64,000 nucleotides of DNA. Source: Methanobrevibacter smithii ATCC 35061. GTDB lineage: Archaea > Methanobacteriota > Methanobacteria > Methanobacteriales > Methanobacteriaceae. The position numbers and the translations under genes are program-made. Shown one piece after another: positions 1,610-18,959 of the stretch (positions are counted from its first letter, which is position 1; the number at the start of each line of letters is the position of its first letter). The notes beneath the pieces are model-generated. The model was not told the DNA's origin. It searched no databases and saw only the letters and a list, made by a program, of their open reading frames with translations. The stretch is from assembly GCF_000016525.1 (NCBI RefSeq), contig NC_009515.1:1080501-1144500 (forward strand), written 5' to 3'.

Positions 1610-4600
1610 TTATTCATTTTCCCTATCTTTTCTGCGTTTATAACCTATAAACAGACAGATTATAAGAATAATGATTAAACCAATAAATGTAAATATTGTG
1701 TTTGGATTGTCTAATTGCTTAGTTACATCCTCTTCATCAATCTCATATGCTTTAACATCATCACTGCTGGAACTGGATGAACTAGACTCTCCAGCATCAG
1801 ATGAACTAGATCCGCCAGCACTAGCTGAAGAAGCTGCATTTGCAGTCAAACCTACAGTAAGTAAGTTTTCATTAGCATTACCACCATCTATTTGGCTTAA
1901 ACTATTAGCATTAGAACTGCCATTAACTCCCTGATTTGAAGTAGGATTTCCACCTTGAGCAGGTCCACCATTAGGACCATATTGGCCACCACCGCCAGGA
2001 CCTAAATTACTTCCAGGACCAGGAATTCCACCACCAGGACCGGAAGGACCAGGACCGGTATTTCCACCAGGTTTACCTTGGCCTCCAATTTGAGGACCAG
2101 TATGCCAAATAGGATTTGTCTTAGTAATCACTGTAGGGCCGGAAGCAGGCTTATCATTACCTCCCGGAGTAACAGTTCCATTTCCATTTGGCTTGTCTGG
2201 TACTACAGTAGGAGCCCAATTAATAATTGACCTGACTAATGGCTTAAATACAATTTTATCACCTAAATTAAAAGGAGAATCATCTGGGACTCCTTTTTTA
2301 CCATTAGATTCCCAGTAATTATACCTTGCATCAACATATAAATGTGAACTGTCATATACACTGAAACTTTCAGCTTTAGGTGCTTTGTTATTTACAATAT
2401 TAGAATTATGTATAACCATATTAGCAGATCCTAAATAAAATGCCCCACCTGATTCCAAACCAAGATTATTAGAGATAGTTGAATTAAAGATATTCAAATT
2501 ATTCTGAGTGTGGCCATAGTAAACATATGAACCGTAACTGATAGCTCCACCATAACTTGCAGAATTATTGCTTATAATTGTATTAGTAATTAGGAAGTTA
2601 TTAGATATGTCTAAAGCACCGCCTTTACTTCCTGCACGATTATCAGTAATTATACAACCATCAATACGTCCATCATTTGCCTGAACAGATAATGCTCCAC
2701 CATTAACTACTGCCTTATTATAACGGACAATAGAATCTTTAAGAGTGAATTTATCAAATGTTCCATAAATTGCTCCACCATCACCATAATTCCTATAAAC
2801 ATAAGAATTCAAGTTAGAATTATTACCTTCAATAGTGGAATTAGCCACATTATTTGTAAAAGAACAATTAGTTAAGTTCAATGAAGCTTTTGGTTTATAT
2901 GTTGAATATTCACCATAATTTGAAATAGTTCCAATAGCTCCTCCTTTATAAGCATTATTATGATCAAATATTGAATTAGCAACTTCTAAAACAGTATTTT
3001 TGTTAAATATTGCTCCACCAGTACCTAAAGGAACTTCACATACTGATCTGTGTTCATAACGAACACCTTCATCAATAGACCATCCGGTAGAATACCTTTC
3101 AAGCATACAATGATCCAAATTAAGAACTGCAACATTCATGTAAAATACAGTATTATTAATTGTAAAAGATTTAGATGAATCTGTGTAAATAGCCCCACCA
3201 TGAACACCTTTATTATCACGAATTACTGATGAAAGAATAGTAGTTTTACCAAAGTCCGCTATAGCTCCACCTCTATGAGCATAATTTCCAGATAATTCAG
3301 TTAAATTAATAACTAAATTACCGTAATTTAATATAGCTCCACCTAATCCAGTATTTTTACAGTCAACAGTATACCAGTACTCCTTGCCTCTGTCATCTAC
3401 AGTTTTATTTATGAAATCAGGATTACTATTATCAAAATAAGCAGAAGAGTTGCAAATTATTGAATTATTAATGTATAAAGTACCATTATTAACAAATAAT
3501 GAACCTCCATTAACATTATGTCCATTAGATACAATTAATCCATTTATTGTTAAAGTACCATTAGTTAAAATAGTAAATAACTGACTATTATTTGCATCAA
3601 TAAATACTTTACCCGGATTAATAGCTAAAATAGTAATATTTTTATCAATAACAAGATTAGAATCATTAAATGTTCCATCAAGCAAGTAAATTACACAATG
3701 ATTTAAAGATTTACCTAAAGCAAAAGCCAGAGAAGCATAAGGACGCTCTTTACTACCATCACCTGCAGTATCACTACCGCCAATTGCAACATAAAGTGCA
3801 AATGGAGTATTATCTATAACCAAATCATGCAATGCATAAACAGCTGCATTTGCACGTTTAGATCCATTACCACTAATAAGATAATTGTTTATAACTTTAT
3901 TAAACAAATTCTCATTAGTTATAATCATAACTGCATAATCATCTCCTTTCAATGAATAAGAAAATATGTTATTATGAGCTACAGTATTACTTACTGATTT
4001 GCCAGTAAAGAAGACAGCTGATTGATTAGTAACGCTTGAATTTCCAGTAATGATTATATCATTGTATTTTATTGAATCATATGCAGAATTATAAGCATAA
4101 TATCCAAATATGGAAAAGCCACTAATAGTTAAATTATTATGATTAAAGTTAGTATATCCAGAATCAACAGAATAAACAACCTTATCAGCTATTCCTGACA
4201 TATTATTATAAGCAATTTCATTATCTTTAGAATTTTTAATAATTACAACATTTTCAAGATTGCTGAAAGTCATATTATTAGAAATTATATGATTTGAAGA
4301 AGTATCAAGTAATTTAATCATTACATTACTTTTTCCACCAGATAAACTATTATTAATTACATAATTACCCATACCGCCAACAACAATTACACTAGAGTTT
4401 GTTAAATTATTATTTTTAATATAAACTTTAGAAACATTGTTTAATGTTAATGTAGAGTTAATTAAAGTTAAATTAGTAATATTAACTGATGAAGCACCAC
4501 TATTAAGAATCAGGTTAACAATTGAACTTACATTTTCTTTATAATATGTGATATTAACTGGAATATCAATACTTAAAGTTTGACCTTTAGTTAAATTATT

Positions 4601-7264
4601 AAGTAGCAACACATCATTGTTTTTAATAATTTTAGAGTTTATAGTATCATTAAAGTATATTCCGCAATTATTATCATCAATAACATAATAAGTAACACCT
4701 AACTCAACAATAGAAGTATTATTCTCAACAAATATTGGATTTGTTACATTAGCATAAATTAAATTACCAGTAATATTTGTATTATTTGTAAATTTAATTA
4801 ATCCAATAGCCCCTTGTCCAATACCTAATATATCATGAATTTCAGTAATTTTAGATAAATTACCACCAAAGATATTGAAAGTGTTGTTTATAATAGAAAT
4901 GTTGTCTGACATATATGTGCCAATACCATAAACACCGTTAGAATTACCATAAAGATAATTATTCACAAAAGTGACATTATAATTTTTATGCAACTCGATG
5001 AGATATGCCATATCCTTAGAATGAATAACAATATTATTATTAGAAATATTCAAATCATGGGGACTGCCAATAACATTACAGCTTGCTATACCGTAAGCTG
5101 CACCATCAGAAATAATGTTAATATTATTTCCCATAATTTCACTTTCAGTTAAAACATCAGCATAAATAGCTTCAGTTACACCAGTACCAATCATGATAAT
5201 AGTATTTCCGGAAATTCTAAATCCTGAAGACATTACTTTATTATAAGTTAATCTTATAGGATTATAAGCAGGCATACTAATACCATAAGCATAAGCAGCT
5301 TTTGAATTAATATAAATATTATTATTTTTTAGAATTATGCCATTGCATACATCAACAACTGAAATAGCTGAATTAGCAGGACTTTTATCCTTCAACATTA
5401 ATGTAATATTATTGTTAGATAACGAAACATCATCTACACCATTTAAGACTATAGCTTCTTTATTCATATTATAGAAATTAAAATCACGAATTAATGATCC
5501 GCTAGCATCTCCACTTAATGAAATAGTAACATTAAATAAAAGATTGCTTTGTTTATTACTAATAATATTGATTTTTTCTGTTATGAATACATCCTTGTTA
5601 GATAAGAATGTAAAGAAGATTACTTTAGTCTTATTTGCTTCAAAAGTATAATTCAAATAACCTCTTTCATCAAAGTATTTGTAGAAATTGTCATCATTAA
5701 TAACTAAAGCTGTTGCATCATAAATAACCCCATTAATCATGTTGTCAGAGTTATTGTCTGCAAGTTCATCAGTAATCTCTTTGTAGATACCAACACTAGC
5801 ATTAGTTTCAATTACATTACCTGATATGGTAGTTTTATAGATTAAACCTTTAATAGAAATACCATAACTTTCACTGCGAATAACATTGTTTAAAATATTA
5901 TTATAATAATATCTCATGACATTTGATGTGGAAGTTACAGATATACCTACAGCATGAGTATCAACCATATTATTTGAAATAGTATTGTTACATCCAATAA
6001 ATGTAATAGCATTATCATGATTAACTTTAATTTTATTATCATGAACATAAGAACAATTATCAGTGATACTAATACCTACACCATAATTCTTAATATTAAC
6101 AGTATTGTTAAAAGCTTCAGTATAATTACTTAAACCGATAGCACAATAAATATCTGTAAATGTTACATTATTATGTGCAACAATAGCAGAATATCCTTTT
6201 TCACCATTAACTAAAATACCATTACCCTGACTAGTTCCAGTTACGTTATTATAGGTAACAGATATATTCTTACCCATTGCAGAAACTGAAATACTGCTTT
6301 CTATAATAGTATTATTATATACTGTAGCATTATCTGAATATAAGCTAATACCATAACTGCCACGAATAATAGTATTATTAGCAATAGTTGTGTTGATATG
6401 GTTTTCATAAACCAACTGTAACACAATAGACATTGCTCCATTACAAAATGCTTTAAGGTAATTATCTGAAATAACGTTACCTAAACATAACGGTGATCCA
6501 CCATAATCTGCATGTCCAAAGGGATTAAAGTAAATCAGATTACTAACTATCAAATCATTATAATCCAGAGTTTCCAATTTATTTTTAGAAATTATATTAT
6601 AATGACATTGACCCATAACCATTACACAGGTAATGTAAGTACTCATATCATTACCAATAATTCTATTATAGCTAGACCATCCCATAGGCATTGCATAAAC
6701 ACCTGCAGCATTAGCTATTCTAATTGTATTGTTAACAATTGTATTATTGTTAGATTTAGTTATCCAAATACCATGTAACTGACCTACATATATTCCATTA
6801 ATAGATAATGCACCTTTAGTATTGTTAATTGTAAGTCCTGAAACTGTAGATCCATCACTACCTTTAACTAAATGAATAAATCCATTTGAAATTTTAGAAG
6901 TATTATCTAAAGGCATTAAAGTTAACTGACGATCAATAACAAAACCTCTATCAGATATATTGCCTATTTTTAAAGTATCTCCAGCTACAATTCCTGATTC
7001 ATTTTTGATTTGACCATTGAATTTGTAGAAATAATTATCATAATTATTTTGAGTAATTTCAATAGTTTTGCCGCCAATAATTGGGCTTAAAACAATATCC
7101 TGATTACCAATATCCAAATTATTAGATTCATGGTTAATAATTACGTTGTCATTCTGTTCCAAAACAATTGTAGAATTATCAGTATCATCTATTGCACTAA
7201 CTGCACTTAATGATAAAATAAAACAACAAATCATTACCAAAATCAACATACCCTGTTTTTTAAT
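1610..7264 (-). CDS. Giant adhesin-like protein, beta-helix, C-terminal membrane anchor
   Basis: About 1884 residues. The order is: signal peptide (IKKQGMLILVMICCFILSLSAVSA); a long Asn-rich region of NosD/PbH1-type right-handed beta-helix repeats to about residue 1150; a second module starting YVAIGGSDTAGDGSKERPY with GGAI/GGAL-type polymorphic beta-helix repeats to about 1660; a Pro/Gly-rich linker; a Ser/Ala-rich stretch; then one transmembrane helix (TIFTFIGLIIILIICLFIGY) and a KRRKDRENE tail. This is a secreted, membrane-anchored surface protein crossing the pseudomurein wall. The first ATG is at 7249, but it is 20 nt from the GGAGGTG site (7270-7276) and would remove the positive N-region. 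No ATG, GTG or TTG lies between it and the upstream in-frame stop. ATT at 7262-7264 gives 5-nt spacing and a normal signal peptide, so I place the start there. The IS element lies 185 bp upstream. The function as adhesin is inferred from family. Confidence 0.87.
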   Translation of the reverse strand: MKKQGMLILVMICCFILSLSAVSAIDDTDNSTIVLEQNDNVIINHESNNLDIGNQDIVLSPIIGGKTIEITQNNYDNYFYKFNGQIKNESGIVAGDTLKIGNISDRGFVIDRQLTLMPLDNTSKISNGFIHLVKGSDGSTVSGLTINNTKGALSINGIYVGQLHGIWITKSNNNTIVNNTIRIANAAGVYAMPMGWSSYNRIIGNDMSTYITCVMVMGQCHYNIISKNKLETLDYNDLIVSNLIYFNPFGHADYGGSPLCLGNVISDNYLKAFCNGAMSIVLQLVYENHINTTIANNTIIRGSYGISLYSDNATVYNNTIIESSISVSAMGKNISVTYNNVTGTSQGNGILVNGEKGYSAIVAHNNVTFTDIYCAIGLSNYTEAFNNTVNIKNYGVGISITDNCSYVHDNKIKVNHDNAITFIGCNNTISNNMVDTHAVGISVTSTSNVMRYYYNNILNNVIRSESYGISIKGLIYKTTISGNVIETNASVGIYKEITDELADNNSDNMINGVIYDATALVINDDNFYKYFDERGYLNYTFEANKTKVIFFTFLSNKDVFITEKINIISNKQSNLLFNVTISLSGDASGSLIRDFNFYNMNKEAIVLNGVDDVSLSNNNITLMLKDKSPANSAISVVDVCNGIILKNNNIYINSKAAYAYGISMPAYNPIRLTYNKVMSSGFRISGNTIIMIGTGVTEAIYADVLTESEIMGNNINIISDGAAYGIASCNVIGSPHDLNISNNNIVIHSKDMAYLIELHKNYNVTFVNNYLYGNSNGVYGIGTYMSDNISIINNTFNIFGGNLSKITEIHDILGIGQGAIGLIKFTNNTNITGNLIYANVTNPIFVENNTSIVELGVTYYVIDDNNCGIYFNDTINSKIIKNNDVLLLNNLTKGQTLSIDIPVNITYYKENVSSIVNLILNSGASSVNITNLTLINSTLTLNNVSKVYIKNNNLTNSSVIVVGGMGNYVINNSLSGGKSNVMIKLLDTSSNHIISNNMTFSNLENVVIIKNSKDNEIAYNNMSGIADKVVYSVDSGYTNFNHNNLTISGFSIFGYYAYNSAYDSIKYNDIIITGNSSVTNQSAVFFTGKSVSNTVAHNNIFSYSLKGDDYAVMIITNENLFNKVINNYLISGNGSKRANAAVYALHDLVIDNTPFALYVAIGGSDTAGDGSKERPYASLAFALGKSLNHCVIYLLDGTFNDSNLVIDKNITILAINPGKVFIDANNSQLFTILTNGTLTINGLIVSNGHNVNGGSLFVNNGTLYINNSIICNSSAYFDNSNPDFINKTVDDRGKEYWYTVDCKNTGLGGAILNYGNLVINLTELSGNYAHRGGAIADFGKTTILSSVIRDNKGVHGGAIYTDSSKSFTINNTVFYMNVAVLNLDHCMLERYSTGWSIDEGVRYEHRSVCEVPLGTGGAIFNKNTVLEVANSIFDHNNAYKGGAIGTISNYGEYSTYKPKASLNLTNCSFTNNVANSTIEGNNSNLNSYVYRNYGDGGAIYGTFDKFTLKDSIVRYNKAVVNGGALSVQANDGRIDGCIITDNRAGSKGGALDISNNFLITNTIISNNSASYGGAISYGSYVYYGHTQNNLNIFNSTISNNLGLESGGAFYLGSANMVIHNSNIVNNKAPKAESFSVYDSSHLYVDARYNYWESNGKKGVPDDSPFNLGDKIVFKPLVRSIINWAPTVVPDKPNGNGTVTPGGNDKPASGPTVITKTNPIWHTGPQIGGQGKPGGNTGPGPSGPGGGIPGPGSNLGPGGGGQYGPNGGPAQGGNPTSNQGVNGSSNANSLSQIDGGNANENLLTVGLTANAASSASAGGSSSSDAGESSSSSSSSDDVKAYEIDEEDVTKQLDNPNTIFTFIGLIIILIICLFIGYKRRKDRENE

Positions 7265-7276
7265 ATTTTCACCTCC
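7262..7276 (-). promoter_or_regulatory. Ribosome binding site and presumptive ATT start codon
   Basis: On the minus strand GGAGGTG (7276-7270) is followed by five bases and then ATT AAA AAA CAG GGT ATG. The codons between the upstream in-frame TAA and that ATG contain no ATG, GTG or TTG. The same arrangement is seen at 18323-18337. Confidence 0.65.
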
Positions 7277-7441
7277 CTTTAAATTAATTAAATAAAATTA
7301 TAGTCCAACAAAATAGAATAAAAATATTATTAAATTGACTATGTTATAAATATCTGACATGATATATATTTAAATTTTTATACAATTTTTAAAAAGCATA
7401 TCTGAATAAAAACAAATAATATAAAAATTTGATGAAAAGTT

Positions 7442-7582: not shown

Positions 7583-8800
7583 ATGTCTAGTATCAAAATA
7601 AAAGCTCCATATGAATTTATGGAGTCAAAACAATTTAAACTTTTCGATTTTGTTCCTGAGTTTTCTGAATTCCGTCAATTTGATGATCTTTATCGATTTG
7701 GTTGCGAAAATATTGAGAATAATCTTATCAGATTGGAAAAAAGAGGTAAAATACATTTTGAGAATAGAGTTGCAATTTGTCCATCTTGTAAATCACATAA
7801 TGCTGTTAAAAATGGTACTTATGAACGTAAACTTATTTTTTTAAGAATTGGAGAACAAATTTGCACTATTCAAAAATATAAGTGCATAAAATGCGGTAAA
7901 GTCTTTTATACTGATTTATTATCTCTTGTTTATTCTAATTCAAATATTACATTGCCTGTTATTGAATGTATTGAGAATTTATATCAAATTTATGGAGCAG
8001 GGCTCCATAAAATACGATTTGATTTAAAACAACAACATAACATTGAAATCTCACATCAAAGCATTGAAAACATCTTATTGAACTCTAATTATCAATTTAA
8101 CTATGATAATTGGACTTATTCTAGATATTACTTATTTGATAGTCTTTGGGTTAAAATTAATGGTGAATGGAACTATATTTTAGCCTTATTCGACGTTAAA
8201 TTGAATACTCTCGTTTCCGTTAAATTGGTCGAATCAGAAGATTCTAAGACCATTTATCAATTTTTAAACGAATCTCTAAGAAATCAGAAAAAAATATCAA
8301 TAGGCACAGACTTAAAACACGAATATCGTGAAGCCATCGATAAATTAAAAGTAAAACACCATTTCTGCAAATTTCACGTGAAACAAGCAGTAAACAAAAG
8401 ATTTAAAGATTACTTTGACAAAAATCCATTATCTGAAGACGAAAAAGACATATTAAATTGTTTAAAACAGGACATTTATAAAATATTGGATGCAAAAGAC
8501 TTAAATACTGCTAAAGAACTTAGAAACGAATTAATAAACAAAAAATATACAAAAAACAAGTTCACAAACAAAATTCTTTGGAAATTCATCATTCCTTACT
8601 TCAAAAAATTAACGACACACCTGGAAAACACGAACATCCCATCAACAAACAATAAAATCGAAAATATCTTCCAAAAAGTATTCCCAAAACACATAAAAAG
8701 AACAATGAAAATAGAACAAGGACTTCTAGCCAGATTCATGCTAAAACTAAATTATTGGAATTTAAACAATGAAAAAGAAAAAAATCACACAAGTTTTTGA
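7583..8800 (+). CDS. DDE transposase with N-terminal zinc ribbon
   Basis: 405 residues catalysing transposition of the surrounding element. A zinc ribbon is formed by C66/C69 and C101/C104. A helix-turn-helix-like region follows at about 115-170. The RNase H-like DDE core has plausible catalytic residues D186 (in FDSLWVKI), D243 (GTDLKHEY) and E360 in TNNKIEN, the usual TNN-x-E motif. HHFCKFHVKQ after the second Asp is typical of ISL3/IS6-like DDE transposases. The frame is intact with no stops. A short TAATATATTAA-rich segment just upstream may be its promoter. The stop codon overlaps the right terminal repeat. The element is probably still active or recently active; activity itself cannot be seen. 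Confidence 0.9.
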   Translation: MSSIKIKAPYEFMESKQFKLFDFVPEFSEFRQFDDLYRFGCENIENNLIRLEKRGKIHFENRVAICPSCKSHNAVKNGTYERKLIFLRIGEQICTIQKYKCIKCGKVFYTDLLSLVYSNSNITLPVIECIENLYQIYGAGLHKIRFDLKQQHNIEISHQSIENILLNSNYQFNYDNWTYSRYYLFDSLWVKINGEWNYILALFDVKLNTLVSVKLVESEDSKTIYQFLNESLRNQKKISIGTDLKHEYREAIDKLKVKHHFCKFHVKQAVNKRFKDYFDKNPLSEDEKDILNCLKQDIYKILDAKDLNTAKELRNELINKKYTKNKFTNKILWKFIIPYFKKLTTHLENTNIPSTNNKIENIFQKVFPKHIKRTMKIEQGLLARFMLKLNYWNLNNEKEKNHTSF

Positions 8801-8855: not shown

Positions 8856-8878
8856 AAGTAAATAAAAGTTATTTACTT
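8856..8878. terminator. Perfect hairpin at the 3' end of the adhesin gene
   Basis: AAGTAAATAA (8856-8865) and TTATTTACTT (8869-8878) pair over 10 bp with a 3-base loop, overlapping the stop codon at 8877-8879. On the minus strand a TTTTTTCTTTTTTTG tract follows. This is consistent with transcription termination or mRNA 3' end protection, but the role is inferred. Confidence 0.45.
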
Positions 8879-11800
8879 ATTGTCTAATAGTAATAGTGTT
8901 TCCAATTTGTAAATTCTCCCAGATAGAAGTAATAATATATTTACCGGACAATAATCTGATACCTAAAGAAGCAATACCATTACTGTCAGTTACTTTATTA
9001 TAGAATACACCATTAACATTAAATGTTATATTTTGATTTGCATAAGGTTTACCTTGACCGTCAATTAATGTAGCTGTGAATTTGCTGCCGTCATTATATT
9101 TCATGTCTAAATTATCAGTAAACATTACATTTTTAACTGTAATTTTATTGGAAACCATACAGTCTTTGTATATTGCAGTAACAATATAGTCTCCCGGAAG
9201 TAAACCAATTCCTAAAGTAGCTACACCATTTGCATCAGTTGTTTTAGTGTAGAATACACCGTTGATATTAAATGTTACTTTTTCACCAGCTCCTGCAACA
9301 CTACCATCCTGTTTAATTACTTTAACTGAATATGCAGATGCATTTTTAAAGTATTTTACAAGATCATGGTTCTCAGTAAGTAAAGATAAAACTGTAACTG
9401 TGTTACCTTTCTGTTCTCCATTAGGACCAACAGCTGTAATAATGTATTTGCCAGGATATAACTGAATATTTAAACCAGCAGTACCGACTGCATTGGTTTT
9501 TTTAGTATACCATACACCATTAATATTAAATTTAACTTCAGTATTTTTTAATAAATTACCATGCCCATCATAGAATACAGCATAATATTGAGTGTCGTTT
9601 CTAAACATTTTAGTAACATCCCTACTTGAAATAGTAGATTTTATTAAAACATTTACTTCAGCATCACTGCCCCACTGTTTAGCATTGGAATCAAATTTGA
9701 TGTAAACTGAATATTCACCAGCTACTAAATTAAGACCCATTGAGAATTTACCATCTTTATCAGTGGTTTTAGTGTAAGTTACACCATTAATAGTTATTTT
9801 TACATCAGCTCCAGCAATTGCATTACCGTTTAAATCTTTAAGAGTTCCTTCTAAACGGGTTCCGTTTTTATAATACATTACAACATCTTTAGCTGAAATT
9901 ACAGTATAAACCATATCTCCGATAGTTAATTTTGAAGTAGCAGAACTGCCTAAGTAGTAATTATTTTCACTAGCATTGGCAGATATTGGATGTGATCCTG
10001 TGAAAGATTTAGGTATTTCATAAACAAATTTAGCTATTCCGTTTTCATCACTTACAGCTTTTCCAGCATATCTTCCATCAGTGAAGAATTCAACAGTAAT
10101 TCCACTTACGCCATTGCCTAAAACATTTTTAACAGTAGCTGTGAAATAAACTTTATTACCTGCTTTTCCAATTACTTCATCTACTTTAATGTTTAATTTT
10201 CCTTTAGTTACAATTAAATTAGCAGTTGCATTAACTGATTTATAATTAACTTTAGATAAAACAGCAGTAATTGAGTAATATCCAGGAACATAGGACTCAT
10301 TTAATTGATATTTTAAAGTAGCGACACCATCATTGAAAACAGCACTTCCAATTTTTACACCGTTTATGTAGAATGCTGCTTGAGCTGCAAGACCACCGGT
10401 GTATGGAAGTTTAGCAGTTATTTTAATGGTTGCATTGTCTAAATAAGATACAGTTACATCTGCAAATACAACATTTTCAAAGATATATTTGTAATTATTG
10501 TTGACAATATTGTTTTTACTATTATTTACACCGTCATTTCCACTGCCTTCTTTTCCAACCAAGTAATTGTTAGTAATAGTATTGTTAACAGATTTAGTAT
10601 CTAAATCTACAGGATAACCTACATTAGATACAATTTCATTATTATCTATTATATTACCAGTTGAAATAGCTACAAAACGAATTCCTGCATTTCCTTCTTT
10701 AATTGAATCATAATTTTTAAATGAAATTGCTTTACCATTACCATTGGAAGTTATTTTATTATTGGAAATAACATTATTACTTGATGCATAACCTGCAAAT
10801 CCATAAACCATATTTCCAGTTCCAGAAATAATATTTCCGGAAATTTTATTGTTGTTGGAAGAATAAGCTTCCATTCCATAAATAACTTCTGCAGCTGCAT
10901 TAACTTTATTGTTTACAATAGTGGAAGATTGAGATAATTCTAAAGTAATACCATAATTTACATTATCTGCTGAAATTTTTACATCATTATCTTTAATTAA
11001 ATTATTTTTTGAATTATAACCTGCTATAATACCTGTTGCAAAATAATTTCCGATAACTTCCACATTATTGTCAACGAATTTATTATTTGAAGAATATTTA
11101 GAAGATCCTGAACCGGTTTCAGATCCAATTACGCCCATACCATATAAATAATTGTCTTTTCCTTCAACATGAATATTGTTTCCAGAAATAATATTGTTAC
11201 TTGAATCAAAGTAGAAATCAATACCTACTAATGAATTAGTGGAAAAATTACCATTAACAGTAGCTCTAGGTTGATTTACTAAAGATTTAACAGTTACATT
11301 ATTGTTTAATACTTCATTGTCAGAAGAATAAATCATTAAAATACCATAGGTTCTGAAAATTTCTTTAACATCATTTTTACCGTCAATACATTTTGAAGCT
11401 TCATATAAATGTAATTCACCAGTTCCTAAAGTATTAATTACGTTTCCAGAAATAGCACAATTTTCTGCACCATATCCGAGAACTGTGTAAGTTAAATAAT
11501 TACCGTGAGAGTAAAGAGTGTTATTTACCACTTCAACATTACCTGATCTGTAAATATAAATAGCATATGCTGCATTCGGATCAACAACACTAATATTATT
11601 GTTTAATATCATTACCTGATTAGTATCAACTACATTAACTCCCCATCTATTTAAAGAAGAAGAGTTTTTATTAATGATAGTTACATTTTCAATCCATACA
11701 TGATTTGTAGTTACTTTAAACATTGAATCAGTAAAAACAGCATTTTTACCAAGGATTTTAATACCTTCAGTAATAAGCATTATTTTATTGTTAAAGTTTC

Positions 11801-13352
11801 CAACAAAGTTTAAAGTATCTCTCATTTTAATAGCTGAATTTAAATTACCGTTTTCATCAAAGAAACTAGAATAATTACTTTCCGTAACTGTGTAAATTGT
11901 ACCATTAAAAACATACACCGGTTTTGATGGATCTACAGCTCCTTCAGGAGTTAATATTAAAGAACCATGACATTTGTTGTTTGAAATTGTGTAAGTATCT
12001 TTATCTGCTTCAGCAGCATCAATTGCATATTTATTAGTGGTAGTTATGTCATTACCTGTAATAACAATATTTGCAGGGAATTTAGTGCTGGACACTTTTT
12101 TAAGTAAAACACCAACACCAGTATTGGAAACTATATTATTATTTGTAACAGTTAAATAATCATATTTACCCATTTGAAAAATACCTGCAGAAGTATTGGT
12201 AGTTACATTATTATTTTTAATTGAAATATAATTACCTTCTGCCTGAATTCCATAACCGTTACCATGAATGTCAACAACATTATCAGTTACATTGGAATAA
12301 TCTCCTGCAAGAATTCCAGCACCCATAAGTAATGCATTTTGAATTATATTATTGGAAACTAAAGAGGAATTACCTACAGCAATTGCATAGTCCCCACCTA
12401 CAGTTTCATTAGTGTTGAAATCTTTACCTGTAGCATTGATAATTTTATTATCAGTTACAATAGTACCTACACCAGTAGAAGAAATGGATCTGTAATTACC
12501 GATGATAGTATTGGAACTTGCATTGTTATAATTTCCCATAAGCTGGATAGCATAATTCCAGGAAGTTGGAAGAACAGTTGCTTTTATAGTATTGTTGAAA
12601 ATAACATTATAATTAGATATAGCTCCAACAAAAGCTCCCCCACCATAACTGGACAAATAAATTCCATTTGCATCATCAGTGTATAAATAATTATCAGCTA
12701 TGTAATTGTAATGAGCACCACCAAGTACAATTAAAGAAGTAGACCTGGAACCATGCCCATAAGTTGCTCCATAAGTAGCTAATACATTGTTTGTAATATT
12801 ATTATAACTAGAACCCGGATTTAAAGCAATAGGGAAAGAACTTGGACCGGAATTGTTTATTTTATTATTGAAAATATTACATTTGGTAGCCTCATTAAGG
12901 AATATTCCCTGAATATCAGTACCTTTATTTGCAATATTTAAGTTAGATACGCTACTTCCAGAGGATTCTTTTAAAAGAACCACAGTACAATCCTGCATTT
13001 TATTAGTTGATGTACCTACAACATTTAAAGGTTTATTTAAAATAAATTTTTTATCACTGAAAGTTCCATCCAAACTCATAGTATCTCCAGAATTAACAGA
13101 AGATGATTTGAGAGTACCATTCTCGTCAAAATAAGTACCATAATTAGATGAACTTACTGTATGAGACGCAGGTGCAGCTATAACACCACTATCAGAATAG
13201 TAATTATAACTAACTGGCTCATAAGATACCATACTATCTGAAATTATATTATCATCAACTGTTGCATTAACATCTTCAGCAGCACTAACTGCTCCGAGAG
13301 ATACAAAAATCAATAATAATAAAATTAAAGAAAATTTAATATTTTTTACCAT
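8877..13352 (-). CDS. Adhesin-like protein with beta-helix and Ig-like repeats
   Basis: 1491 residues with a clear signal peptide (MVKNIKFSLILLLLIFVSLGAVSA) and a normal ATG. Residues of about 90-960 are Asn-rich NosD/PbH1-type beta-helix repeats. About 970-1150 are Ig-like (Big-type) domains, including PGYYSITAVLSKVNY. From about 1150 to the end there are four copies of a ~75-residue module with NGVxYxKTTDxxGxAxLGI and PGxYIITA cores, resembling carboxypeptidase-regulatory or Ig-like folds. There is no C-terminal transmembrane helix, so retention must be by wall binding or interaction, unlike its neighbour at 1610-7264. The protein is predicted to be on the cell surface and its binding target is unknown. 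Repeats within the gene make recombination-driven length change likely. Confidence 0.9.
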   Translation of the reverse strand: MVKNIKFSLILLLLIFVSLGAVSAAEDVNATVDDNIISDSMVSYEPVSYNYYSDSGVIAAPASHTVSSSNYGTYFDENGTLKSSSVNSGDTMSLDGTFSDKKFILNKPLNVVGTSTNKMQDCTVVLLKESSGSSVSNLNIANKGTDIQGIFLNEATKCNIFNNKINNSGPSSFPIALNPGSSYNNITNNVLATYGATYGHGSRSTSLIVLGGAHYNYIADNYLYTDDANGIYLSSYGGGAFVGAISNYNVIFNNTIKATVLPTSWNYAIQLMGNYNNASSNTIIGNYRSISSTGVGTIVTDNKIINATGKDFNTNETVGGDYAIAVGNSSLVSNNIIQNALLMGAGILAGDYSNVTDNVVDIHGNGYGIQAEGNYISIKNNNVTTNTSAGIFQMGKYDYLTVTNNNIVSNTGVGVLLKKVSSTKFPANIVITGNDITTTNKYAIDAAEADKDTYTISNNKCHGSLILTPEGAVDPSKPVYVFNGTIYTVTESNYSSFFDENGNLNSAIKMRDTLNFVGNFNNKIMLITEGIKILGKNAVFTDSMFKVTTNHVWIENVTIINKNSSSLNRWGVNVVDTNQVMILNNNISVVDPNAAYAIYIYRSGNVEVVNNTLYSHGNYLTYTVLGYGAENCAISGNVINTLGTGELHLYEASKCIDGKNDVKEIFRTYGILMIYSSDNEVLNNNVTVKSLVNQPRATVNGNFSTNSLVGIDFYFDSSNNIISGNNIHVEGKDNYLYGMGVIGSETGSGSSKYSSNNKFVDNNVEVIGNYFATGIIAGYNSKNNLIKDNDVKISADNVNYGITLELSQSSTIVNNKVNAAAEVIYGMEAYSSNNNKISGNIISGTGNMVYGFAGYASSNNVISNNKITSNGNGKAISFKNYDSIKEGNAGIRFVAISTGNIIDNNEIVSNVGYPVDLDTKSVNNTITNNYLVGKEGSGNDGVNNSKNNIVNNNYKYIFENVVFADVTVSYLDNATIKITAKLPYTGGLAAQAAFYINGVKIGSAVFNDGVATLKYQLNESYVPGYYSITAVLSKVNYKSVNATANLIVTKGKLNIKVDEVIGKAGNKVYFTATVKNVLGNGVSGITVEFFTDGRYAGKAVSDENGIAKFVYEIPKSFTGSHPISANASENNYYLGSSATSKLTIGDMVYTVISAKDVVMYYKNGTRLEGTLKDLNGNAIAGADVKITINGVTYTKTTDKDGKFSMGLNLVAGEYSVYIKFDSNAKQWGSDAEVNVLIKSTISSRDVTKMFRNDTQYYAVFYDGHGNLLKNTEVKFNINGVWYTKKTNAVGTAGLNIQLYPGKYIITAVGPNGEQKGNTVTVLSLLTENHDLVKYFKNASAYSVKVIKQDGSVAGAGEKVTFNINGVFYTKTTDANGVATLGIGLLPGDYIVTAIYKDCMVSNKITVKNVMFTDNLDMKYNDGSKFTATLIDGQGKPYANQNITFNVNGVFYNKVTDSNGIASLGIRLLSGKYIITSIWENLQIGNTITIRQ

Positions 13353-13498: not shown

Positions 13499-16400
13499 TT
13501 AATAATCATCTTCATCGTTTTCGTGTTTGTTTCTAGCATACCCGACGACAAATATTGCAATCAAACAGATTACTGCAATAATAAGTACAACAGGAGTACT
13601 TGATTGACCAGCTGCAGATTTAGATGCAGAACTTTTAGAAATTTCATGAGCAGTAGCTCCAGATTGACCTTTAGATGAATCTGATTGTGAAGAAGCATCT
13701 TTAGATTGAGGTGATGCAATTTTTGCATCAGCCGGATCAACAGAAGTATCTAATCCCGCCGCAGTTGCCCCACCAGCTTCACCACTGCCACTTTGATCAT
13801 TATTAGTAGTTCCATTTACCAAGACTTGGTCATTATTATTATCATCAGTATCTGAAGTATCTCCATTTGAATCATCAGGATTAGAACTATCAGAGCTACT
13901 GTCATCTTTGTAAAGAGGATCAGTTAATGTAGCTTGAGCCAATATTTGAGAATACTTAGCTTTATCAGCAGAAGATAATGAACTAGACTGTATAAGTTTC
14001 ATGTTGAAATCCAAATTCTTACATGTGTGGTGACAACAAGCAACACCATACTGAATAGCCATTTGAATCATATTATCTGCTAATTTAGTCACCATGTCTG
14101 GACTAGCATCCCATTTACCTTGATAATTTAAATACATCATCCATGCAGCCATAGATTGCCAAGCAGCTGCTTGAGCAACATTACCTACACCACTTGCAAG
14201 ACCCAAATAAGTATTAGCTATTTCATTACCTAATTGAGTGTTTAAATTCTTATTAGCTACAATCAAACCACCATATAAATTTTGCATTTGAGCAGCATAG
14301 GATAATGAACCTGCACGTGTACTGAATAATGCATTATAATATAATGGATTTAATATTTTACTACGAATTTCAAATTCAAGCTCTTCATCGTAAGTTCTAC
14401 TAATATAGTCATTTTTATTCCTTATATCTACAAATGCAGTGTCAGGTTTAGCACCTAACTGTTTAGCTGCATTGTATAAACCACCAAACCAATCATAGTA
14501 ATCATCAGAATCGAAGAATCTCCAAGTACTATCAAAGTTTTGAGTAATCAAATCAACTTTACCAAGCAAGTATTCATAGTTTTTCCTTTCGTTGTTAATT
14601 ACGATATTACCATGTTCATCAAGAGTCCAGGAATAAGATACTCTGCTAAGATAAATATCCGCTAAATCCGAATTAATTGTAGTGATATTCCAGTTTGCAG
14701 TATTTGGTATAAGAGAATTCATACCAGTACCTTCCAAAACAGCACCAGGAAGACCAAATAACCTATCAGTCATCGGATTTTCAGCATAATGCTTTTTCAG
14801 GAAGTTGTTTGAAACATCATCATCAGTGGAATTTAAAGCTAAACTAACAGCTGTTAACATTAATTTAATCCAATTAGTATTACTTGTAACCATACTTGCA
14901 AATACATCAACTCTAGGTCTGTTTACCACTGAACCATTACTTAATTTTACAGTTAAATTATTAATTGGAATTAACTCAACACCAGTAATGTCTCCAGATC
15001 TGGACCATGTCGGTTTACAGCCGAGGAAATACATAAATTCTGCAACACCAATACCTTCAGTCCTTAATATTTCAGTACCCCACAATATTAAAGCAGTAAG
15101 TTCAGGCCAGCTTCCATGTTCTTCATAATAATTTGCAAGAAGCAAATCTACAACATTTACTGCAGACTCATAAGCTGCTTTAGAAGGCATTTTTGAAGCA
15201 TCAGAACTGTGACCAATATGTCCGGTAGGTATTGAATCACTATAAGCAGGATCTGCAAACAAACCTGCAGTAGTATAACTACCAGATAATGCTGCTAACA
15301 ATGCATTCCATTCATTATTGTTTTGTATTTGAGAAATTACTTTTGAAGCAAATACTAATGATTCATATAAGCCAGAAGATTTGTTATAAACTTTAAACTC
15401 ATCCATTTCAGCTAATTTATCAACACTAGCTGTACCATTTACAAGATTTTCAACAAATGACCTGAACCAGTTAATTACAACTAATTTTTGACCTTCATAC
15501 TGACGGTCACCTTTAATATCATCATAGTAATCCTTATTTTTTAATTCTGGATAAATATGATGCAATATTTGAGTATATACATCAGTTCTTGAAGTTGTTA
15601 TTGTAATAACTTCTTCAACAAGTTCAGTTCCATTTAAAACTTTACCAAGAGTATGTAAACCGAAAGTATTGAAATCTTCTGCCATACTATCCAAGTAATT
15701 ATGTAATCCTTCAAGCCAATCATCAAATTTTTGACCATCAGCAGGTTTGTCAAAACCTAAAGTAGGAGCTAATTCTAAAATTAACTTTTTATAAGCCTCT
15801 GCATTAGCTGAAACATTATTTTTTACTTGTTCATTATAGTGGTCGATGTAATTGGATAATGTAGTATAATTACCATATAACTCTGAAATTACCATTGCAG
15901 GAGTCATATGAGTGATCATCATAGAACCTATCCTATCTCTAGCTACCATAGCTTCCCCAGGGTTTGATACAATATATGGATATATAGTAGGAGTTAATGT
16001 TAACTCAAATGTCCAGTCACCTTCATGAACACCAATATTTCTACCAGGTAACCACTCTACAGTACCGTGAGTACCTAAATTAATAATTGCATCACAACCA
16101 ATAGTCTTATCTAACCATTTATAAAAGGTAACATATTGCTGATGAGGCGGCAATGTCAAATCGTGATAATTTTGAATCTCCTCCCAACCTCTACTTGGTT
16201 GGAAAGTGATGAATACCTTACCAAACCACATTCCTGGAATTACAATATATGTCTTATTATATACCATTATTTCTCCAAGACCTGCACCCCAACGGTCAAC
16301 CATTTGCTTATACAATGTTTGATTCATATCTTTAGTCAAGTTATAAAACTCATCTAATGTAATCAACTGATGATGTTCCATTAACTGATTCCAATATTTT

Positions 16401-18325
16401 TCAACATACTGATTTAACAAACCTTGAGCCCAGGTACCTTTGTTACCCATTTCAATTATTAAATCAGACAAATCATCAACAGACGGAATGTCGGACTTAT
16501 CCATTCCAATATCATATCCCGCATCAGCTAAATGCTCAAGTATATCATGAGCACTTTGGAAAACATCTAAATAAGATGCACCAATTTCTGCTTTACCCGG
16601 CGGATAATTGTACAAAACAACTGACACAACTTTGGAAGAATTATCCATATCTTTTAAATCTGCCCATCCAGTAGTCATTTTGACCATTTTTTCTATACCT
16701 GACTGCACAACATGTACTTTACCCATATTATCTTTATATGATAAAATAACAGGACCAAAGACTCCTTCAAAGCTAGGAATAGAAACTGAAAATGTCCACT
16801 CCATTTGAGCACCAAGCTCACTGTCAAAACTGGTTTGAGAAATATCCACCAAACCTTTAACAACAGTTAAATTAATTTTAACCAAATCATCTTCAGCAGA
16901 TCCTTTACCATAATCTAGAGACCAGCTGTATAATGAAGCTATAGCTGATATACCAATTTGAGAAGTTTGAGTAAGAGTTAATAAAATTGAAGACATTGAT
17001 GGAGTAATACCTGTTTTAAATATATTAAAAGCAGATCTACCATTTGCTTCATAAGTTCTAATCAAAGCATCCACAACACTTCCACCACAGTAGTAAGAAG
17101 CAATAGCTATGAATTTGGTTTCAGGATTTTTCATATTCATATATTTGTTTTCAAATTGTCTGAACAATTCTGCAGGATTCAATTCAGTTTTCATCCACTG
17201 CTCATATTCTCCAGTCATCCAATTTAAACTTCCCTTTTTATCATCATTATATCCAGGATGTGATAGAATCCACTGATTAATTTCACTGGCTTTTGGAACT
17301 ACAGAAAACATTCCAAAATCCGGATGGTAAATACCGCATTCAGGACTTAATTGGGGAGCCCCACCTTCCTGAAGTGTAGGATTTGTGTATTTTTGAGGAT
17401 TAATTAAATAATAAACATATTTCAAGTAATTTTCCATGTTTGATTTTAAAACATCAGAATTATTAATATCCTGAGCCTGGAAATAAGAACCTATATATGT
17501 ATTTTCAACAGTATTGTAAGAATTATCTGCTGCACTTGCTCCTACAAAATGAATACCTATATTCTTAATTATTTCATCATTATAAACACCAAAAGTATAA
17601 GCAACATTATATTTTGCATTAGCTGGTGAAGAGCTTAACAAATTCTTTAACACCTGAGAAGTAAAAAGACTATATGAACCTTCAGCAAACATATCAACAT
17701 GCACGAAGTTAGCATACTCTAATAACCATTCTCTAGTCTTGTCATAGTCAGTTGTACTTATATATGCAACCCTTTTAGATAAACTCATTAAATAGTCTAC
17801 TTTTTCTGAGTGTGATTCATAAGATACTAAAAGCATAATATCTGGAACAAACATGTAATTAACTAAAACAGAAGAATGACTTCCAAGATTTACATTTTCT
17901 GTGTGAGTCTCATAAGTAGAATAGCTAAGTTGAACTTTATAATTGCCAGCAGCTAAATTACCAATTGAATAAGCACCCCCAGCACCAGTTTTACCAGCAA
18001 ATACTAGATTATTTGATGAATCCAAAACTGTAATATTAACACCTGCCAAATCCACTCCGTCTTCAACCCAGGTTTTTGTAGTTGGATTATAAGAATCCTT
18101 AGTATGAATATCAATACTACTGTCTCCAGCATTAGCAGAAATTACATCAGTATAATAAATATTGCTAACTTCATCTACACTAACACCTATAACATCCCCT
18201 AGAACATCATTACTAACTATTGTTTCGTTGTTAGAAACATCCTGCGCAGATACTATGCCCATTGTCATAATAAACATTAATAATAGACAAAAAATAATAA
18301 ATGCACTTTTATTTAACCTTTTAAT
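13499..18325 (-). CDS. Surface-anchored CobN/Mg-chelatase H subunit-like protein
   Basis: About 1608 residues. The signal peptide IKRLNKSAFIIFCLLLMFIM...IVSA is followed by a Cna-B/carboxypeptidase-regulatory-like domain (GKTGAGGAYSIGNLAAGNYKV). A full CobN/BchH-like region follows: MLLVSYESHSEKVDYL, DAIINLGTHGTVEWLPGR with GVHEGDW, GEAMVARDRIGSMMITHMTP, and TALILWGTEILRTEGIGVAEF with SRSGDITG. A Ser/Asp-rich linker and one transmembrane helix (VVLIIAVICLIAIFVVGY) end the protein. CobN subunits bind tetrapyrrole and insert metal with ATPase partners (CobS/CobT or ChlI/ChlD) in the cytoplasm. This one is predicted outside the cell, where no ATP is expected, so its reaction is unclear; metal or corrinoid capture is a guess. 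No partner subunit is in the window. The start is ATT (18323-18325). The first ATG (18277) would leave too short a signal peptide, and no ATG/GTG/TTG lies in frame upstream before a TAA. Confidence 0.85.
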   Translation of the reverse strand: MKRLNKSAFIIFCLLLMFIMTMGIVSAQDVSNNETIVSNDVLGDVIGVSVDEVSNIYYTDVISANAGDSSIDIHTKDSYNPTTKTWVEDGVDLAGVNITVLDSSNNLVFAGKTGAGGAYSIGNLAAGNYKVQLSYSTYETHTENVNLGSHSSVLVNYMFVPDIMLLVSYESHSEKVDYLMSLSKRVAYISTTDYDKTREWLLEYANFVHVDMFAEGSYSLFTSQVLKNLLSSSPANAKYNVAYTFGVYNDEIIKNIGIHFVGASAADNSYNTVENTYIGSYFQAQDINNSDVLKSNMENYLKYVYYLINPQKYTNPTLQEGGAPQLSPECGIYHPDFGMFSVVPKASEINQWILSHPGYNDDKKGSLNWMTGEYEQWMKTELNPAELFRQFENKYMNMKNPETKFIAIASYYCGGSVVDALIRTYEANGRSAFNIFKTGITPSMSSILLTLTQTSQIGISAIASLYSWSLDYGKGSAEDDLVKINLTVVKGLVDISQTSFDSELGAQMEWTFSVSIPSFEGVFGPVILSYKDNMGKVHVVQSGIEKMVKMTTGWADLKDMDNSSKVVSVVLYNYPPGKAEIGASYLDVFQSAHDILEHLADAGYDIGMDKSDIPSVDDLSDLIIEMGNKGTWAQGLLNQYVEKYWNQLMEHHQLITLDEFYNLTKDMNQTLYKQMVDRWGAGLGEIMVYNKTYIVIPGMWFGKVFITFQPSRGWEEIQNYHDLTLPPHQQYVTFYKWLDKTIGCDAIINLGTHGTVEWLPGRNIGVHEGDWTFELTLTPTIYPYIVSNPGEAMVARDRIGSMMITHMTPAMVISELYGNYTTLSNYIDHYNEQVKNNVSANAEAYKKLILELAPTLGFDKPADGQKFDDWLEGLHNYLDSMAEDFNTFGLHTLGKVLNGTELVEEVITITTSRTDVYTQILHHIYPELKNKDYYDDIKGDRQYEGQKLVVINWFRSFVENLVNGTASVDKLAEMDEFKVYNKSSGLYESLVFASKVISQIQNNNEWNALLAALSGSYTTAGLFADPAYSDSIPTGHIGHSSDASKMPSKAAYESAVNVVDLLLANYYEEHGSWPELTALILWGTEILRTEGIGVAEFMYFLGCKPTWSRSGDITGVELIPINNLTVKLSNGSVVNRPRVDVFASMVTSNTNWIKLMLTAVSLALNSTDDDVSNNFLKKHYAENPMTDRLFGLPGAVLEGTGMNSLIPNTANWNITTINSDLADIYLSRVSYSWTLDEHGNIVINNERKNYEYLLGKVDLITQNFDSTWRFFDSDDYYDWFGGLYNAAKQLGAKPDTAFVDIRNKNDYISRTYDEELEFEIRSKILNPLYYNALFSTRAGSLSYAAQMQNLYGGLIVANKNLNTQLGNEIANTYLGLASGVGNVAQAAAWQSMAAWMMYLNYQGKWDASPDMVTKLADNMIQMAIQYGVACCHHTCKNLDFNMKLIQSSSLSSADKAKYSQILAQATLTDPLYKDDSSSDSSNPDDSNGDTSDTDDNNNDQVLVNGTTNNDQSGSGEAGGATAAGLDTSVDPADAKIASPQSKDASSQSDSSKGQSGATAHEISKSSASKSAAGQSSTPVVLIIAVICLIAIFVVGYARNKHENDEDDY

Positions 18326-18337
18326 CTTTTCACCCCC
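18323..18337 (-). promoter_or_regulatory. Ribosome binding site and presumptive ATT start codon
   Basis: GGGGGTG (18337-18331), five bases, then ATT AAA AGG TTA AAT AAA. An in-frame TAA lies eight codons upstream of the ATT. The 24 codons between that TAA and the first ATG (18277) include no ATG, GTG or TTG. The encoded IKRLNK supplies the basic N-region that the signal peptide needs. Confidence 0.7.
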
Positions 18338-18587: not shown

Positions 18588-18870
18588 GGCATGTTAAGAG
18601 TAACCCACCTTCTGTTTAACAGCATTCATCTTAGCGAACTACTTTTGCCTCTTACAGTAGTCATCAGCATTTTTTGTTCTTGCATCCTATGGAATGGCCG
18701 TTTCACCGATTCTTTCAATGTCCTCAATTAAATATCATAGTCAACCATTAAAAGACGTGTCGTTTCTGCTCCAGAGTCATACCTCTCAGTATACGTTTTT
18801 CAACGCCATAGTCTGTAACGATGGGCGGAGTTTCCTTAGTTAAAAAACCAACAGCTGTCTTTAACTTGCC
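18588..18870 (-). ncRNA. rnpB: RNase P RNA (archaeal type A)
   Basis: Read on the minus strand the sequence has the RNase P signatures. CR-I is GGAAACTCCGCCCATCG near the 5' side. GAGCAGAAACGACACG and GGTGAAACGGCC are of CR-II/III type. The 3' part contains ACAGAAGGTGGGTTAC, matching the CR-V ACAGAANNNGG rule. The ends GGCAAGTTAA and TTAACATGCC pair to form P1, which sets the limits. This RNA is the catalytic core of RNase P, which trims tRNA 5' leaders. It lies just downstream of the initiator tRNA gene, on the same strand. Confidence 0.9.
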
Positions 18871-18884
18871 ATATTTATAAAAAG

Positions 18885-18959
<75 letters not shown>

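Follow-up and report, generated by a model that had tools for sequence, protein, structure and literature searches.

The window, a 64,000-nucleotide stretch of Methanobrevibacter smithii ATCC 35061 (contig NC_009515.1, positions 1,080,501 to 1,144,500), carries two genes for large exported proteins, neither of which has an in-frame ATG, GTG or TTG between its upstream stop codon and an ATT that stands behind a strong Shine-Dalgarno sequence (Table 1). On the minus strand, the site of gene 1 is followed by AAAAT (7269-7265), the ATT, then AAA AAA CAG GGT and an in-frame ATG; in gene 2 the order is GGGGGTG, AAAAG, ATT, AAA AGG. The first-pass annotation had described this arrangement in gene 1 and the identical five-base spacing in gene 2, and its coordinates proved correct throughout. 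Read from its ATT, gene 2 opens with a textbook-like signal peptide, (M)KRLNKSAFIIFCLLLMFIMTMGIVSA, as does gene 1 from its own ATT, and the first canonical codon of gene 2 does not appear before the middle of that peptide.

Table 1 Features at and around the two ATT start sites, in window coordinates
Feature	Position	Strand	Description
Gene 1	1610..7264	-	1884-residue adhesin-like protein, right-handed beta-helix, C-terminal membrane anchor
Gene 1 Shine-Dalgarno GGAGGTG	7270..7276	-	8-base match, GGAGGTGA to AGGAGGTGATC
Gene 1 AUU start codon	7262..7264	-	AUU/AUC/AUA in 11/11 close homologues
In-frame ATG downstream of gene 1 ATT	7247..7249	-	start there would lose both signal-peptide lysines
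Gene 1 signal peptide (M)KKQGMLILVMICCFILSLSAVSA	7193..7264	-	predicted, rule-based
Neighbouring beta-helix adhesin	8877..13352	-	ordinary ATG start, weaker site
Gene 2, CobN-like surface protein	13499..18325	-	signal peptide, carboxypeptidase-regulatory-like domain, CobN domain, C-terminal membrane anchor
Gene 2 Shine-Dalgarno GGGGGTG	18331..18337	-	five-base spacer to the ATT
Gene 2 AUU start codon	18323..18325	-	most homologues within the order have ACG, AUC, AUU or AUA
Gene 2 CobN/magnesium chelatase domain, PF02514	14093..17443	-	605 bits, residues 296-1412

One competing reading is a start within the gene, in gene 1 the ATG at 7249, which is in frame and five codons past the ATT. It lies 20 nt from the ribosome site and would drop the basic residues of the signal peptide, two points already made in the first-pass annotation and both accurate; the protein would begin MLILVMICC..., without the two lysines. 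The codon is also unconserved: it is absent from this position in the gene 1 homologues, and in other members of the class described below the first downstream canonical codon falls at positions that range between codon 3 and codon 52. An internal start is thus very improbable. A still more remote reading takes the ATT as an internal isoleucine or threonine codon of a longer frame, or has translation begin at the GTG within the Shine-Dalgarno sequence, 8 nt upstream, and shift frame. AUU, AUC and AUA do all encode isoleucine, but in-frame stops lie close upstream, and where the codon would be read as threonine it is almost only ACG. The GTG is out of frame at the usual 5-nt spacer, where it soon meets a stop, and in frame at 6 nt, so its frame is not conserved; we give this reading next to no weight.

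The adhesin character of gene 1 is supported by its export signal, a beta-helix match (PF13229, 27.5 bits against a cut-off of 25.9) and a C-terminal hydrophobic stretch. For gene 2, the signal peptide and C-terminal anchor make an extracytoplasmic role likely. The adhesin between them begins with ATG, so the weak start is not used by every surface gene. A 405-aa open reading frame resembling an insertion-sequence transposase (7583-8800, plus strand) separates this adhesin from gene 1. Immediately upstream of gene 2, and likewise on the minus strand, lie an archaeal RNase P RNA (18589-18869) and a tRNA (18885-18959), and in many rumen Methanobrevibacter (loci L059-L081) a conserved AT-rich leader, CAAATTAAATTTAAACTTATAGTAAA followed by TTGCTATGTTT, precedes the Shine-Dalgarno sequence of the cobN-like gene, possibly as its promoter and transcription start. 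No riboswitch was found in the window with Rfam.

Both starts are conserved between species. Methanobrevibacter homologues of gene 1 with at least 52% identity (n = 11, counting the window's own gene and its sister) begin with AUU, AUC or AUA and never with AUG. Their tree requires at least five changes of start codon, all at the third base and none of them to G. Paralogues at about 40% identity start with ATG behind weaker sites. Sequence error was dismissed as a cause of the ATT, since independent genomes show the same starts.

The CobN-like family is broader. N-termini were gathered across the order and, after removal of duplicates, gave 84 distinct loci, with six codon assignments corrected by eye. 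A near-cognate start was found in 61 of these 84 loci, which are mutually related rather than independent. ACG accounts for 32, AUC for 16, AUU for 10 and AUA for 2, with one ambiguous near-cognate codon; the remainder comprise 20 AUG and one each of ACA, GUG and UUG. Almost all Methanobrevibacter and all Methanothermobacter are among the near-cognate cases. Methanobrevibacter homologues mostly use ACG, then AUC; those of M. smithii and its sister have AUU. The Methanothermobacter homologues (35% identical) use AUU or AUC in every genome examined, genus names being assigned here from size and sequence. Canonical starts occur nearly all outside gut Methanobrevibacter, AUG and GUG mostly in a genus, g5, that appears to be Methanosphaera-like, and in a few others.

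Near-cognate codons in this family go with stronger ribosome sites, the mean Shine-Dalgarno score being 8.2 as compared to 5.5 for canonical starts (p=2.5e-8). A tree built without the start and signal peptide requires at least 15 codon changes, six of which cross between near-cognate and canonical. In the genes that start with ACG, this triplet accounts for 2.6% of the threonine codons in the interior, whereas at the start position of the family 32 of 33 threonine codons are ACG, which indicates that it was chosen as a start and is not an ordinary threonine codon. Third-position changes exceed second-position changes 6-17-fold in eight close pairs and about two-fold in two partial, more distant pairs, an excess that points to intact genes under purifying selection.

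Size and make-up of the class were estimated in several ways. Across the M. smithii genome (1,853,160 bases, single contig), G[AG]GGTG-N5-AT[TCA] occurs 40 times and the reversed pattern 43 times; GRGGTG-N5-ACG has no site there. The bare motif is not rare, and the argument consequently rests on conservation and context: it is the placement of the motif before a long signal-peptide reading frame, together with conservation, that exceeds chance. Baselines were drawn from genome stretches, many of the sequences come from metagenome bins, and a simple hydrophobicity rule served to call signal peptides. A whole-gene scan with weak Shine-Dalgarno thresholds was too noisy to be of use.

Among 100 signal-peptide genes with a strong Shine-Dalgarno in 739 kb of Methanobrevibacter contigs, 49 had canonical starts (ATG 41, GTG 4, TTG 4), 49 near-cognate starts (ACG 20, ATT 17, ATC 10, CTG 1, ATA 1) and two another codon, one of them actually ACG at spacing 6; because CobN guided the choice of these contigs, ACG and ATC are over-represented. 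For an unbiased count, a single exact 12-base site plus spacer, GGAGGTGAAAAT, was sought in 150 genomes from this order. Behind it stood 57 near-cognate codons (ATC 17, ATT 15, ACG 12, ATA 10, CTG 3), 54 canonical ones (ATG 38, GTG 13, TTG 3) and 27 of all other kinds (AGG 2, others 25); the reversed pattern was found 15 times. For matches followed by a reading frame, a signal peptide was present in 32 of 38 near-cognate cases as compared to 1 of 13 canonical cases (Fisher p=1e-6). The canonical matches examined are chiefly histone genes, the near-cognate ones chiefly long signal-peptide proteins.

The near-cognate genes fall into 23 unrelated sequence clusters, the majority of them surface proteins. 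The feature reaches a genome from a different family within the same taxonomic class, where a surface protein with repeats and an S-layer-like protein encoded next to cobN both start with AUU, cobN itself starting at ATG. Further intact cases in M. smithii lie near 748,988 (1136 aa), 842,450 (773 aa, spacing 6) and 1,423,949 (AUA, 640 aa); the scan covered the whole genome for spacing 5 and 44% of it for other spacings. An apparently broken member, an adhesin remnant at M. smithii 319047-320000 (L330), retains GGAGGTGAAAAT-ATA at about 319,059 and a signal peptide, and carries an in-frame stop and frameshifts.

The proposal in the first-pass annotation that two such starts reflect a rule rather than an accident is therefore upheld: both starts are conserved across species, and enrichment, for which it had suggested scanning, was found in the strong-SD sets and in the 150-genome count. 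Its picture of a set of AUU-started surface-protein genes needs widening. The set does consist mostly of surface genes, but it also uses AUC, AUA, ACG and some CUG, and a few cytosolic genes belong to it. The class occurs among Methanobrevibacter adhesin-like genes and extends to Methanothermobacter and other genera as well. Start position, codon class, conservation and pairing with a strong Shine-Dalgarno are all established here at the level of sequence. In our judgement it is very likely that AUU is the start codon of genes 1 and 2 and that these genes are one case of an order-wide class in which a near-cognate start is paired with a strong Shine-Dalgarno, probably so as to limit output.

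Near-cognate codons are read with one tolerated mismatch to the initiator anticodon, at the cost of a strongly reduced yield. For the present class we infer that Met-tRNA initiates, that the yield is lower, that AUG is selected against and that aIF1 exerts control. Initiator Met-tRNA would pair with AUU through one mismatch, and the 30S subunit would be kept in position by a full-length Shine-Dalgarno that lies five, sometimes six, bases upstream. Large exported surface proteins would in this way be kept at AUU, AUC, AUA or ACG (rarely CUG or UUG) behind a near-perfect Shine-Dalgarno. The combination of weak codon and strong site most likely caps output and ties it to initiation stringency (aIF1, ribosome state), so that giant surface proteins would be made slowly or adjustably. 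That translation is low or regulated would be a reasonable expectation, given the behaviour of such codons elsewhere and the stronger Shine-Dalgarno that accompanies them. Homologues that pair AUG with a weak site might nonetheless give a similar yield, and low expression is accordingly not a direct consequence. A single special initiator tRNA was judged unlikely by reasoning, since nothing unites AUU, AUC, AUA, ACG and CUG beyond a single mismatch to AUG, and editing of ACG to AUG was set aside because it gives no account of AUU or AUC. Local RNA structure was no stronger at near-cognate starts (mean folding energy -6.6 kcal/mol as compared to -7.4 kcal/mol at canonical starts).

These codons might be true starts that are merely tolerated, a perfect Shine-Dalgarno allowing the codon to drift with no regulation attached. 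Such a reading would fit the association with strong sites, the wandering among AUU, AUC, AUA and ACG, and the regained AUG or UUG in some CobN homologues (L079, L070). Pure drift, however, should have produced many more AUG, GUG and UUG starts. A single substitution would turn any of these codons into AUG, which has nevertheless rarely become fixed (1 of about 50 rows in the gut Methanobrevibacter CobN clade), and a change from ACG to AUC or AUA takes two steps, with AUG the sole start codon in between. Both considerations suggest selection against AUG and leave simple tolerance rather unlikely. The weak start could alternatively serve secretion and not amount: slow initiation would space ribosomes on mRNAs of 1000-2000 codons, allowing capture of the signal peptide before the translocon jams. 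Near-cognate genes with signal peptides are indeed long, with a median of 1610 aa as compared to 322 aa for canonical signal-peptide genes in a CobN-biased sample. In these genomes AUG nonetheless starts many long surface proteins, the adhesin at 8877-13352 among them, and a small number of near-cognate genes encode short cytosolic proteins; we consider a secretory purpose unlikely. Starting from the output-limiting reading, a more far-reaching version, which we offer tentatively, is a weak-start regulon, in which selection would keep dozens of unrelated surface genes at AUU, AUC, AUA or ACG behind a perfect Shine-Dalgarno, and a single shift in stringency (aIF1 level, KsgA/Dim1 methylation, growth state) would tune them, and with them the whole cell coat up or down, in the absence of a transcription factor.

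The Escherichia coli infC and pcnB genes have AUU starts that are kept weak, and their output is set by initiation stringency. The weak AUU start is shared with the genes described here. The E. coli cases are single genes of gene expression under factor feedback, whereas in M. smithii the aIF1 gene is present with an ATG start of its own and the targets are surface proteins. Autoregulation of infC is mentioned in PMC13009471, which describes near-cognate starts with an extended Shine-Dalgarno in Staphylococcus aureus and Bacillus (infC AUA, cvfC1 AUU, ccpN AUA); reporters of the S. aureus AUU/AUA type reached about 10% of the AUG level, and ccpN up to 30% in rich medium. That type shares with ours the conserved AUU/AUA start and the strong extended Shine-Dalgarno, but it is bacterial, IF3-dependent and limited to few, mostly small genes, while ours is archaeal, includes ACG and serves giant exported proteins. 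The archaeal surface-gene starts have the correct Shine-Dalgarno distance, no fitting canonical start, a stronger site than AUG homologues and conservation between species, and are a variant of the known infC-type and Staphylococcus AUU/AUA extended-SD starts. Among archaea, the aIF1 of Sulfolobus solfataricus selects against non-canonical starts (cited in PMC8211752), and in Haloferax loss of KsgA/Dim1 increases non-AUG proteins (PMC7897474). These papers on aIF1/eIF1 and KsgA/Dim1 concern the machinery expected to read or reject such codons and describe no comparable natural target class. In the literature searched, which lay outside subscription journals, we found no earlier description of such starts in archaea or Methanobacteriales.

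Gene 1 and most members of the class belong to the Methanobacteriales adhesin-like proteins, 49 of which are listed for M. smithii with no mention of start codons (PMC11532034). Some of the N-terminal helices that look short or absent in these proteins may owe this to annotated starts that lie too far inside the gene. It is probable that many archaeal surface proteins carry misannotated N-termini, and such errors spoil the prediction of signal peptides in proteins with a role in gut and rumen interactions, which are also candidates for vaccines. NCBI table 11 does not even include ACG among its start codons. The class also offers a natural, ancient near-cognate set as a direct testing ground for archaeal, eukaryote-like start-codon selection; if regulation is true, a whole surface proteome would be controlled via initiation stringency alone.

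Outside the surface genes, one genome (G048) has two small predicted cytosolic proteins that start with AUU and AUC. They are relatives of 72-87 aa (L254, L255) with ATT and ATC after a perfect Shine-Dalgarno, one of them having no later canonical start. In M. smithii, a 166-aa reading frame with no signal peptide (L193, 12508, minus strand) has a strong Shine-Dalgarno, TGGAGGTTATA, ATA at spacing 5 and no upstream canonical start. In the loci examined, Methanobrevibacter coaB, which is split from coaC, lacks a canonical start ahead of the first strand. At about 1,010,845-1,011,573 in M. smithii (L309, L353) the TGA of coaC is followed by coaB in the same frame, and only GAGGTG-N5-ATC, directly behind that stop, precedes the first strand; in two further coaB genes of Methanobrevibacter (L363, L364) a fitting canonical start is likewise absent, and Methanothermobacter coaBC is an intact fusion. 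It is possible from these sequences that coaB, an essential enzyme, begins at AUC or AUU.
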